Origin: Thermoplasmata archaeon
Lineage (GTDB): Archaea > Thermoplasmatota > Thermoplasmata > Thermoplasmatales > Thermoplasmataceae
Length of the DNA: 64,000 bases
Assembly (NCBI GenBank): GCA_021846395.1
Contig: JAJZXB010000003.1
Coordinates: 62,001-126,000 of the forward strand
Direction: 5' to 3'
The notes beneath the pieces are model-generated. The model was not told the DNA's origin and ran no database searches. It saw only the letters and a list, made by a program, of their open reading frames with translations. Of this stretch, positions 40,371 through 49,103 are shown piece after piece. Numbering within the stretch: position 1 is the first letter of the stretch; the number at the start of each line of letters is the position of its first letter. A program made the position numbers and the translations under genes.

Positions 40371-40679
40371 TTATCCCTTCCATATTCCAATTCCCAAACC
40401 TATTATGAATATCACAAGTATGAGCGATAGGGAACCAATTTTGCCTATTGGTAGGATGGATGGTAATTTATCTATATTTGCAAAAATAAATGACTTAACA
40501 TGTGTCAGTATCGCAGAAAATGATAATTTAGGCAAAAATGCAAAACCTGCATATGTTGCAATCATGATTGCACCAATTAACAATACAAATGATGCAATAC
40601 CCTTTTTAATTGCCAAACCAAAGAACAATCCATCTATAAACGCAAGAATCAATATTATATAACCTTCAACAGCTACCAT
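40371..40679 (-). CDS. Small hydrophobic membrane protein
   Basis: A 102-aa protein with three likely helices: residues ~5-24 (GYIILILAFIDGLFFGLAI), ~28-50 (IASFVLLIGAIMIATYAGFA) and ~80-100 (LSLILVIFIIGLGIGIW). A short amphipathic loop lies between the second and third. No charged catalytic residues are apparent and no family is recognised. The ATG at 40679 is the only sensible start. It looks real because of its full-length open frame with clean hydrophobic periodicity. Confidence 0.6.
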   Translation of the reverse strand: MVAVEGYIILILAFIDGLFFGLAIKKGIASFVLLIGAIMIATYAGFAFLPKLSFSAILTHVKSFIFANIDKLPSILPIGKIGSLSLILVIFIIGLGIGIWKG

Positions 40680-41158: not shown

Positions 41159-41572
41159 ATGAGTTTGATAGTTATTGGTGTGTTGCATAAATATAATGCA
41201 GAGGTAAAAAATAAAGAGTCTTCAGATAATTATATAAACGTAACCAAGAAAATTCTGCAAATGTATAAAATTAAAAGTGGGTGCCTCATTAATGGCAGAA
41301 TAAATGAAATAAATTCTGCAGTTGATAGGGATAAACAAATAGAGGTGGCCATGCCAAACCTTGCATACATAAGTGGAATGCATGTTGATATGATTTATAT
41401 TGAAGGTGATGGAGAGAAAGATTACTTATTTTTTCCAAATAAGGAGTGGAATAAAATCGTTAACTTTGCTATTTTTCCGGAAGAATATGAAATTAAATTT
41501 GAATTTAATACAATTTCCTGCGGTTTTAGAAAGATTAAACTGTTCAATAAGGGCATAGTTATAGATAAATGA
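41159..41572 (+). CDS. Unknown 137-aa protein, first gene of ESCRT-like cassette
   Basis: Not recognised. Predicted as mostly beta strands: SLIVIGVLHKYNAEVKN, CLINGRINEINSAVDRD, HVDMIYIEGDGEKDYLFFPN and EYEIKFEFNTISCGFRK. It has no membrane segment or signal peptide, and its two Cys residues are far apart. It opens an operon: its TGA overlaps the ATG of the Vps4-like ATPase gene (ATGA), implying translational coupling, and a TATA-like box lies about 25 nt before the ATG. By position it is a candidate adaptor or regulator of the ATPase/ESCRT-III pair. That is inference only. Confidence 0.72.
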   Translation: MSLIVIGVLHKYNAEVKNKESSDNYINVTKKILQMYKIKSGCLINGRINEINSAVDRDKQIEVAMPNLAYISGMHVDMIYIEGDGEKDYLFFPNKEWNKIVNFAIFPEEYEIKFEFNTISCGFRKIKLFNKGIVIDK

Positions 41573-42693
41573 TTTATGGTGTTTATATGAAGGATTATAA
41601 TGGTATCACAAATTTATCCAGAGTTACAAAATTATTGGAAGAAGCAATGGATTATGAAACACAGGGAAAAAAAGATGAGGCTATAGAATCATATAAAAAC
41701 GCATATAAATATTTATTGGAAATTGCTAAAAATTCAAAGGGAGATGAAAAGAAAAAAAGATTAGTGCAGGCGGAAAATGTATTAAAGGCCTGTAATTCAT
41801 TGAAAAATTTAGATGTTAATGAGGATAAAATAAATAATGGCAAAAAAATATTGCAGTCATTAAATGTTGAAACACCAGAAATACCTAACATTACATTCAA
41901 TGATGTTGCGGGTCTTGAGGACGTAAAGAGTGAAATAATGTCAAAAATCATATATCCAATGAGATATAAGGAACTGTCAGAGGAGTATGACATAGAATTT
42001 GGCGGCGGCATGCTTTTATTTGGCCCCCCTGGAACAGGAAAAACTTTTATCGTTAAGGCTATAGCAAATGAAGTAAAGGCAAATTTTATTAATGTTAACC
42101 CATCATCTCTATACAGTCAGTGGTTTGGGCAGTTTGAAAAAAATATTTCCTTGCTTTTTAAGGCAGCCTATTTGCTATCACCTTCAATTATATTCTTTGA
42201 TGAGATTGACACACTTGTTCCAAAAAGGAGCGGAAACGAATCAGATGCAGCAAAAAGAGGCGTATCACAGTTGTTAACCGAGGTTGGAGGATTGACCTCG
42301 GAAAAGGATAAAAACATATTCCTTATAGCCGCTACAAATAATCCATGGGCCATAGATGAAGCAATATTGCGACCGGGAAGATTTGATGTTAAAATTTATG
42401 TGCCCCCACCAGATTACGAAGCCAGGAAAAAGCTGTTTGAATTAAAATTAGCTAAAATTAAACCTGTGGGAAATATTGATTACGAACATCTTGCAAAGAT
42501 TACAGAAAGGTATTCTGGTGCAGATATAGAATTTATATGTAAAAAGGCAATTCAAAACGTGTTCATGGAAGTTGTAAAAACCGGAAATAAAATTCCAGTA
42601 AACGGCGAGGATTTAATGTCTGTTATTTATCAAATTAAACCATCAGTAGACGAAAACATGCTTAATAGATATAAAATGTATACGGACAGCTAA
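41569..42693 (+). CDS. MIT-domain AAA ATPase, Vps4/CdvC-like
   Basis: A 374-aa ATPase with the layout of Vps4/CdvC, which remodels ESCRT-III polymers. Residues ~12-82 form a three-helix MIT domain (TKLLEEAMDYETQGKKDEAI, ESYKNAYKYLLEIAK, then RLVQAENVLKACNSL). The AAA core follows: Walker A GPPGTGKT at 152-159, pore loop SQWFG at 183-187 with the aromatic Trp of Vps4-type substrate grip, Walker B IIFFDEID at 207-214, and LRPGRFD with arginine finger. The small subdomain includes YSGADIEFICKKA. The gene lies between the 137-aa and ESCRT-III-like genes. ATG at 41569 overlaps the upstream stop; an in-frame ATG at 41587 is the alternative. Confidence 0.88.
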   Translation: MIYGVYMKDYNGITNLSRVTKLLEEAMDYETQGKKDEAIESYKNAYKYLLEIAKNSKGDEKKKRLVQAENVLKACNSLKNLDVNEDKINNGKKILQSLNVETPEIPNITFNDVAGLEDVKSEIMSKIIYPMRYKELSEEYDIEFGGGMLLFGPPGTGKTFIVKAIANEVKANFINVNPSSLYSQWFGQFEKNISLLFKAAYLLSPSIIFFDEIDTLVPKRSGNESDAAKRGVSQLLTEVGGLTSEKDKNIFLIAATNNPWAIDEAILRPGRFDVKIYVPPPDYEARKKLFELKLAKIKPVGNIDYEHLAKITERYSGADIEFICKKAIQNVFMEVVKTGNKIPVNGEDLMSVIYQIKPSVDENMLNRYKMYTDS

Positions 42694-42749
42694 TAAAATA
42701 TAAGTTTAAAATATAGAAAACTTTATTTAAAGGATTATATTTATTATTT

Positions 42750-43358
42750 ATGGCAGTCTTCAAATTCGGCAAAAGTGAGGAGGAAAAGATCCTTGAAAAA
42801 AGATCAAGAATCAGTATGAATAAATCAAACATCGATAGAACAGTAAGGCAATATGAAAAATTCAAAGCAAAAAGTATAGAAGATGCAAAGATAGCTCTAA
42901 AAGATAATAATATTAGAAAAGCAAAACTATTTGCTTCCTTTATACAATCTCTTGAGTCATCAATAACGGGCTTGAAAGATTATAGATTGTTGCTTGAAAG
43001 CGTTGATTTAAACCTTCAGTATTCAAAGACCCAAAGAGATATATGGTCATCATTAAAGCAAAGTTCACAGGATCTTGTAGGTGGACAGTTAACCCCACAA
43101 CAAATAATGGAAATATCACAAAGCATAGATTCTATAGTTCAATCCCAGGAAAGAATACAGGAGTCTCTTGGCGATCAGCTTGACCAGATTAAGAATGCAG
43201 TAGATCAGAGCTCAGAAATAAACCCGGAAGGTCGGGACAAAGTTCTTGAGGACTTAATGAAACAATCAGAGAAAAATGAACCGGAAAATGTTTCAGAAGA
43301 GGATGAAAAATTAAATCAGTTATTGAAAGATATAGGAAAAGATCAGGAAAAAGAATAA
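42750..43358 (+). CDS. ESCRT-III/CdvB-like protein (Snf7-related)
   Basis: A 202-aa, highly helical, charged protein. The first ~125 residues follow the Snf7/CdvB helical pattern: a basic helix 1 (EEEKILEKRSRISMNKSNID), IALKDNNIRKAKLFASFIQS matching the A-x-x-A-L-x-x-G/N-x-x-x-x-A-K turn between helices 1 and 2, and SVDLNLQYSKTQRDIWSSLK. An acidic C-terminal half follows. The last 20 residues (EEDEKLNQLLKDIGKDQEKE) contain D-x-x-L-x-x-L-L-x-x-I, very close to the MIM1 motif (D/E)xxLxxRLxxL that binds MIT domains. It begins 56 bp after the ATPase gene, with a TATA-like atttaaaggattatatttatt before the ATG. The assignment is by pattern, not by search. Confidence 0.75.
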   Translation: MAVFKFGKSEEEKILEKRSRISMNKSNIDRTVRQYEKFKAKSIEDAKIALKDNNIRKAKLFASFIQSLESSITGLKDYRLLLESVDLNLQYSKTQRDIWSSLKQSSQDLVGGQLTPQQIMEISQSIDSIVQSQERIQESLGDQLDQIKNAVDQSSEINPEGRDKVLEDLMKQSEKNEPENVSEEDEKLNQLLKDIGKDQEKE

Positions 43359-43387
43359 ATTTATCAATAAATATAACATTTTAAATT

Positions 43388-43510
43388 ATGAAAAAAATAT
43401 TTCATGAGAGATCAGAATTTTCTGTATATTGCGATCTTGGTATTTATAGAAGAGATAGCAATATAAGGGAATTTAAAAAATACTTTGATAAACTCAATAA
43501 AAAAAAATAA
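43388..43510 (+). CDS. Possible 40-aa small protein after the ESCRT-III-like gene
   Basis: A short frame, MKKIFHERSEFSVYCDLGIY … KKYFDKLNKKK, that begins 29 bp after the ESCRT-III-like stop. A TATA-like aataaatataac lies about 20 nt before the ATG. Composition (aromatic and basic residues, no hydrophobic run) is protein-like, with one Cys. It could be a small operon member or chance. No family is recognised. Confidence 0.4.
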   Translation: MKKIFHERSEFSVYCDLGIYRRDSNIREFKKYFDKLNKKK

Positions 43511-48891: not shown

Positions 48892-48952
48892 TTTTTCTAA
48901 ACATAAAATATTTAATTGTCAGTTTGGGCATTTGCATTCATTTTAATTATTG

Positions 48953-49099
48953 TTGAATAGGGCCAAATATGAAAAATTTATAATACTGCCAGTGGTTTGG
49001 CATGGGCGGCCAGTAAATGACATAATAGTACTGAAAAACTCCGATGTAAAGGGAATAGCAAAAAAACATCACCTGACCAAAAGCTTAGGAGATGTTTAG
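48953..49099 (+). CDS. Small 48-codon frame between lysK and HAD-ECH gene
   Basis: An open frame from TTG at 48953 reads NRAKYEKFIILPVVWHGRPV, then VLKNSDVKGIAKKHHLTKSL, and ends 5 bp from the convergent gene's stop. It has protein-like composition but no ATG, no obvious ribosome site, and no family I recognise. It may be a real small protein or the last part of a decayed gene. Confidence 0.3.
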   Translation: MNRAKYEKFIILPVVWHGRPVNDIIVLKNSDVKGIAKKHHLTKSLGDV

Positions 49100-49103
49100 T
49101 CAT

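Follow-up and report, generated by a model that had tools for sequence, protein, structure and literature searches.

We read a compact gene cassette in the window, the 64,000-nucleotide stretch of archaeal DNA analyzed here, as a minimal ESCRT system of the Thermoplasmata type, in which an ESCRT-III polymer would be remodeled by a Vps4-type ATPase, probably for cell division. The probability of this reading is put at roughly 60%, the ESCRT identity of the cassette being far surer than its role in division. Four parts are backed by sequence or structure prediction, namely a Vps4-type MIT-AAA ATPase, the mostly-beta partner whose gene lies 5′ of it, an ESCRT-III protein, and a conserved microprotein whose gene lies 3′ of that for ESCRT-III. 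The host is of the same genus as Acidiplasma aeolicum, and neither the core (Vps4, ESCRT-III, and the arCOG07400 barrel) nor its FtsZ-less carriers are new, both being described in the main text of an earlier study (Makarova et al., 2024; PMC10936438). Added here are a microprotein whose gene comes directly after that of ESCRT-III in 11 of the 13 cassette-bearing genomes that lack FtsZ, with a truncated copy in one more and no occurrence elsewhere in the order; a 102-aa membrane protein whose gene keeps its place near ESCRT genes across six genera, in varying orientation; and an ESCRT-III that, in the Ferroplasma clade, has been replaced or remodeled almost past recognition next to an ATPase kept at 70% identity.

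Cassette Layout and the ESCRT-III Protein

All four cassette ORFs lie on the plus strand at the coordinates given in the first-pass annotation (Table 1). The genes for the 137-aa and 374-aa proteins share a 4-base overlap, 56 bases separate the ATPase gene from that of the 202-aa protein, and a further 29 bases precede the 40-aa ORF; both gaps, 3′ of the ATPase gene and 3′ of the Snf7 gene, are AT-rich. A conserved neighbor had been overlooked, namely the minus-strand gene of the 102-aa membrane protein, which is divergent from the cassette. No ESCRT-I, ESCRT-II, or ubiquitin parts were seen at the locus.

The identity of the 202-aa protein as an ESCRT-III is established in silico, which agrees with the Snf7/CdvB helical pattern ascribed to it earlier. 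It scores 29.6 bits against Pfam Snf7 (PF03357; cut-off 27.3) and is the sole match to this model in the genome, where a search for further cdvB copies found a single clear ESCRT-III. Its AF2 model, of modest confidence (pLDDT 76, pTM 0.52), has helices at residues 10-51, 55-110, 116-153, 159-174, and 183-200, which corresponds to the ESCRT-III layout of a long alpha1-alpha2 hairpin followed by alpha3-alpha5. The top PDB folds returned by Foldseek for this model were the CdvB and CdvB2 filaments of S. islandicus, with CHMP proteins lower; the CdvB match reached a probability of 1.00 at an E-value of 0.015, the remaining E-values were higher, and BAR-type helical bundles ranked too. A separate sequence profile matched human CHMP3 (E 2e-5) and Vps24 (E 3e-4). 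The acidic-hydrophobic, MIM1-like spacing of the C-terminal helix recurs in relatives, and from its sequence this helix may be an MIT-binding motif.

Table 1. Features of the cassette, its neighborhood in the window, and related loci in other genomes.
Feature	Position	Strand	Basis or context
102-aa small membrane protein, three hydrophobic segments; candidate extra component	40371..40679	-	homologs adjoin ESCRT genes
137-aa mostly-beta protein, probably arCOG07400; cassette gene 1; putative adaptor	41159..41572	+	AF2; adjoins ATPase gene
374-aa Vps4-type MIT-AAA ATPase	41569..42693	+	Pfam AAA, AAA_lid_3, MIT; weak Vps4_C
202-aa ESCRT-III (Snf7/CdvB-like) protein	42750..43358	+	Pfam Snf7; AF2; CdvB fold; CHMP3/Vps24 profile
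ESCRT-III C-terminal helix, residues 183-200, MIM1-like spacing DEKLNQLLKDIGK; possible MIT-binding motif	43296..43349	+	AF2 helix
40-aa conserved microprotein, family consensus LFFDLGIFKxDRNxxEFKxxxxRIK	43388..43510	+	profile matches; dN/dS
Diverged ESCRT-III	L061:2894-3586; L062:3330-4022; L063:7674-8285; L068:7114-7782; L069:7054-7716; L070:4535-5230		Ferroplasma clade
102-aa family members	L071:7717-8046; L072:7367-7675; L075:175-480; L121:1891-2229; L122:3490-3819		beside ESCRT genes
Second barrel paralog	L104:3460-3819; L105:5825-6214; G094:C1:8435-8719		sister genomes; distant form in Picrophilus-like genomes
Second MIT-AAA ATPase, 383-422 aa	L118:2514-3782; L119:9178-10437; L120:4218-5369		three g4 genomes
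ATPase to ESCRT-III spacer in G063, ~4.7 kb	L065:7418-12140		probably an insertion

Distribution, FtsZ Loss, and the Division Question

Among 117 genomes of the order, homologs of the barrel protein occur in 24, and a profile search found ESCRT-III in all 24, many of these sequences having helped to build the profile. In 20 of 20 loci read, the barrel gene directly adjoins the MIT-AAA ATPase gene; the ESCRT-III gene belongs to the locus as well, and in some cases it is inverted or lies a few kb off. This adjacency and co-occurrence support the cassette genes as a functional unit and, together with the predicted ESCRT-III core and the CdvB match, bear out the ESCRT reading of the first-pass annotation, including its pairing of the 202-aa protein with the MIT-AAA gene. 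Named carriers include Acidiplasma aeolicum VT (of the window's genus), Thermoplasma MAGs, and Thermogymnomonas acidicola. Compared with G097 and G101, presumably T. acidophilum and T. volcanium, the window's proteins are 62-63% (ATPase), 50-51% (ESCRT-III), and 33-34% (barrel) identical. No relative of any cassette part was found in the viral contigs scanned. In G063, the ATPase and ESCRT-III genes are separated by about 4.7 kb, compared with a few hundred bases in close relatives, and this spacer is probably an insertion.

FtsZ/tubulin was found in 101 of the 117 genomes. The host had been expected to divide with FtsZ, an expectation that fails, as a check of its full genome found no ftsZ and SepF and PRC are absent as well. 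FtsZ is missing from the window's genus (0/3), from the Ferroplasma-like genus g4 (0/10, ten species), and from the Picrophilus-like g13 (0/2), and neither SepF nor a PRC barrel was detected in any of these 15 genomes. The host genome gave no match to PF05239, a search that a diverged PRC domain could escape; it is 97% complete, and several of the genomes without FtsZ consist of one contig and are 99% complete. A search for actin (PF00022) was uninformative, returning 0 of 21 genomes and missing even one taken to be T. acidophilum.

The case for division is that FtsZ, SepF, and PRC are missing and yet the barrel gene is retained in 13 of 13 genomes of the window's genus and g4. The main text of Makarova et al. 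(2024; PMC10936438) defines Vps4, ESCRT-III, and the beta-barrel arCOG07400 as the minimal Thermoplasmata ESCRT system, names Acidiplasma and Ferroplasma as carriers without FtsZ, SepF, and PRC, and suggests a division role there. These genera should not be counted as independent replicates, as FtsZ may have been lost just once, within a single clade.

That the ESCRT system is genuine but works in releasing vesicles, repairing membranes, or maintaining them under acid stress, and not in division, is somewhat unlikely in our judgment. FtsZ, SepF, and PRC are all retained alongside the three-gene core in both Thermoplasma genomes in which PRC was searched for, so that the core predates FtsZ loss and may serve elsewhere, e.g., in vesicle release, and larger ESCRT-like clusters coexist with FtsZ in other genomes of the family. 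The Picrophilus-like G094 has no FtsZ, SepF, or PRC, and no ESCRT-III was detected in it by a 19-sequence profile; some FtsZ-less relative must therefore divide without this system. However, all 13 Acidiplasma/Ferroplasma-type genomes retain the cassette while lacking the entire known FtsZ set, and PMC10936438, which notes an actin, mentions no further established means of division in these genera.

In the mechanism proposed here, ESCRT-III would polymerize at the inner membrane face, and the MIT domain of the ATPase would bind the ESCRT-III C-terminal helix and thread subunits through its pore, their removal leading to constriction and clearance of the filament. Placing or anchoring the filament, for which Sulfolobus uses CdvA, may fall to the barrel and the 102-aa membrane protein, and the microprotein may tune the filament or the ATPase. 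In Acidiplasma and Ferroplasma, scission of the cell-division neck would be the likeliest job. A bolder scenario, speculative and in our view slightly less probable than the vesicle and repair roles, is that, when FtsZ was lost in the Acidiplasma/Ferroplasma lineage, an inherited ESCRT module became the division machine and gained a dedicated subunit of about 40 aa with ESCRT-III or the Vps4 MIT domain as its binding partner, the three-segment membrane protein being the ancestral Thermoplasmata ESCRT anchor in place of CdvA. The Acidiplasma cassette is a good place to ask how wall-less, acid-loving archaea without FtsZ divide; because the natural ESCRT set is very small here and close relatives in the order have both systems, a switch from FtsZ to ESCRT is open to direct study.

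Two Small Conserved Neighbors

The 40-aa ORF, noted earlier as a mini-ORF, is a real gene under purifying selection. Pairwise dN/dS is 0.02-0.27 for the pairs where it is computable, and 10 other genomes have a homolog at the corresponding position. With the window's own copy included, a member of 36-42 aa is encoded immediately 3′ of ESCRT-III in 3/3 genomes of the genus and 8/10 of g4; the copy in G061 is cut off by an assembly gap, and the microprotein is missing from G064. A profile built with 10 of the 11 sites (the G060 copy was left out) matched 11 sites across the 117 genomes at E-values of 3e-13 to 1e-19, the best other match being at E 0.008, and within the order the family is restricted to FtsZ-less, cassette-bearing genera. 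A basic amphipathic helix was considered and is not claimed, the hydrophobic moment being clearly above that of shuffles in just 2 of 10 sequences.

The 102-aa membrane protein has no Pfam or NCBIfam match and no PHROGs match beyond chance. Its homologs neighbor ESCRT genes in Acidiplasma, Thermoplasma, G092/G093, and Thermogymnomonas, with an orientation that varies among genera; in G085 and G054 they adjoin a different, larger ESCRT-like cluster, and in G042 about 1.4 kb separates a homolog from the barrel gene. The larger clusters (L121 in G085 and L122 in G054, other genera of the family) code for a Snf7-like protein and several small helical ones, along with a protein that weakly resembles GAP1-N2 (E 5e-4); L121 also carries two MIT-AAA ATPases and a third AAA ATPase.

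Both proteins could be bystanders, i.e., real neighboring genes without an ESCRT role, which we consider doubtful and about as probable as the vesicle and repair roles. G064 retains the core without the microprotein, and no homolog of the membrane protein was found beside the cassette at any g4 locus. Against this, the microprotein remains directly 3′ of ESCRT-III even where ESCRT-III has fallen to 18% identity, and the membrane protein lies about 50-500 bases from ESCRT genes in most of its six genera despite the changes of orientation, whereas no other window gene is consistently retained at these loci.

Divergence of ESCRT-III in the Ferroplasma Clade

In six g4 genomes, two of which are presumably F. 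acidarmanus and F. acidiphilum, the ESCRT-III at the conserved spot is 18-21% identical to that of the window, while the ATPase is 69-70% identical. The branch leading to the Ferroplasma-type ESCRT-III exceeds 6 changes per site, compared with 0.29 for the ATPase. Profile comparison links both types (E 7e-6, probability 84%); Pfam Snf7 was not listed for the two Ferroplasma-type proteins scanned. The ESCRT-III of G064 is a third type (26-30% identity). Replacement by a distant paralog and a burst of change would both explain the Ferroplasma-type protein. The change of ESCRT-III beside a conserved ATPase constitutes a natural experiment in partner change. Three g4 genomes also encode a second MIT-AAA ATPase (Table 1), and such a gene lies near the cassette in G064 and G067.

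The ATPase and Its Beta-Rich Partner

The first-pass description of the 374-aa protein as a Vps4/CdvC-like ATPase with an N-terminal MIT domain and an AAA core was upheld as to architecture: MIT, a single AAA domain, and a lid are found, with Pfam scores of 138.6 bits for AAA and 32.1 bits for AAA_lid_3. The MIT domain scored 28.9 bits by hmmscan, just under the cut-off of 30, and 32.1 bits in the genome search; residues 1-100 matched Vps4 MIT structures in the PDB weakly, ranked below a designed helical-repeat protein, and the Vps4_C match was weak (16.0 bits against a cut-off of 21.3). The pore-loop tryptophan pointed out earlier is present (W185, in SQWFGQ), but the second AAA domain of archaeal VCP carries it too (KWVGESE in the alignment), so that this residue does not identify Vps4 and was dropped as a signature. 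The CdvC equivalog of NCBIfam (NF041006) has a curated cut-off of 650 bits, and the ATPase scores 231.6 bits; it was therefore filed as Vps4-type and not as CdvC. That the protein is instead a Cdc48/VAT-type unfoldase beside a helical protein unrelated to ESCRT-III is very improbable and already disfavored, for although the ATPase, taken whole, finds its best PDB matches among VCP-like proteins and its NCBIfam CDC48 score (235.8 bits) is slightly above that for CdvC, both far below cut-off, it combines one AAA domain with an MIT domain, and its 202-aa partner passes the Snf7 cut-off and has a predicted CdvB-like fold.

The 137-aa protein gave a mostly beta AF2 model (pLDDT 86, pTM 0.82) with no significant fold or sequence match in the PDB and no PRC match; a PRC-barrel or CdvA-like identity is not claimed, such matches being absent. 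Judging from synteny and the predicted beta fold, it most likely corresponds to the published arCOG07400 barrel. Both other genomes of the genus and all g4 genomes have a second, stand-alone barrel paralog of about 120-130 aa, of which both g13 genomes have a distant form. This paralog has been lost from the present genome, where the aligned spot (48892-49103) keeps the flanking genes and holds no such ORF. The Picrophilus member of arCOG07400 cited in PMC10936438 probably belongs with this second barrel, and would therefore make a weaker case as a division candidate there.

Comparison With Known Systems

The closest published counterpart is the minimal ESCRT system of Thermoplasmata, which likewise encodes Vps4, ESCRT-III, and the beta-barrel arCOG07400 together and whose Thermoplasma genes are homologous to those of the cassette (Makarova et al., 2024; PMC10936438). 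The first-pass annotation did not recognize the four-gene arrangement and left two small proteins unassigned; this no longer holds for barrel, Vps4, and ESCRT-III, which are published, the 137-aa protein most likely being that barrel, but it stands for the 40-aa protein. Neither the microprotein (36-42 aa) nor the 102-aa neighbor is mentioned in the main text of that paper, searched for small and membrane proteins, and the changed ESCRT-III of the Ferroplasma clade does not appear to be noted there.

The FtsZ-SepF-PRC system, with which most of the order would be expected to divide, is absent from the host genome. With the CdvA/CdvB/CdvC system of Sulfolobales the cassette has in common an ESCRT-III protein and an MIT-AAA ATPase, CdvB being the best structural match of the 202-aa protein. 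It differs in that a single clear ESCRT-III is present, the ATPase scores below the NCBIfam CdvC cut-off, and the upstream slot holds a beta-rich protein for which no solved fold gave a significant match; CdvA was not identified in the host, as no PRC protein was detected. With eukaryotic Vps4 and CHMP/Vps24 it shares the MIT-AAA motor and a five-helix ESCRT-III that matches CHMP3 and Vps24 by profile, in a gene set that is very small compared with eukaryotic ESCRT. If the microprotein or the membrane protein is a working part, the cassette would offer a simple model of how an ESCRT-III filament is anchored and regulated without CdvA, ESCRT-I, or ESCRT-II.
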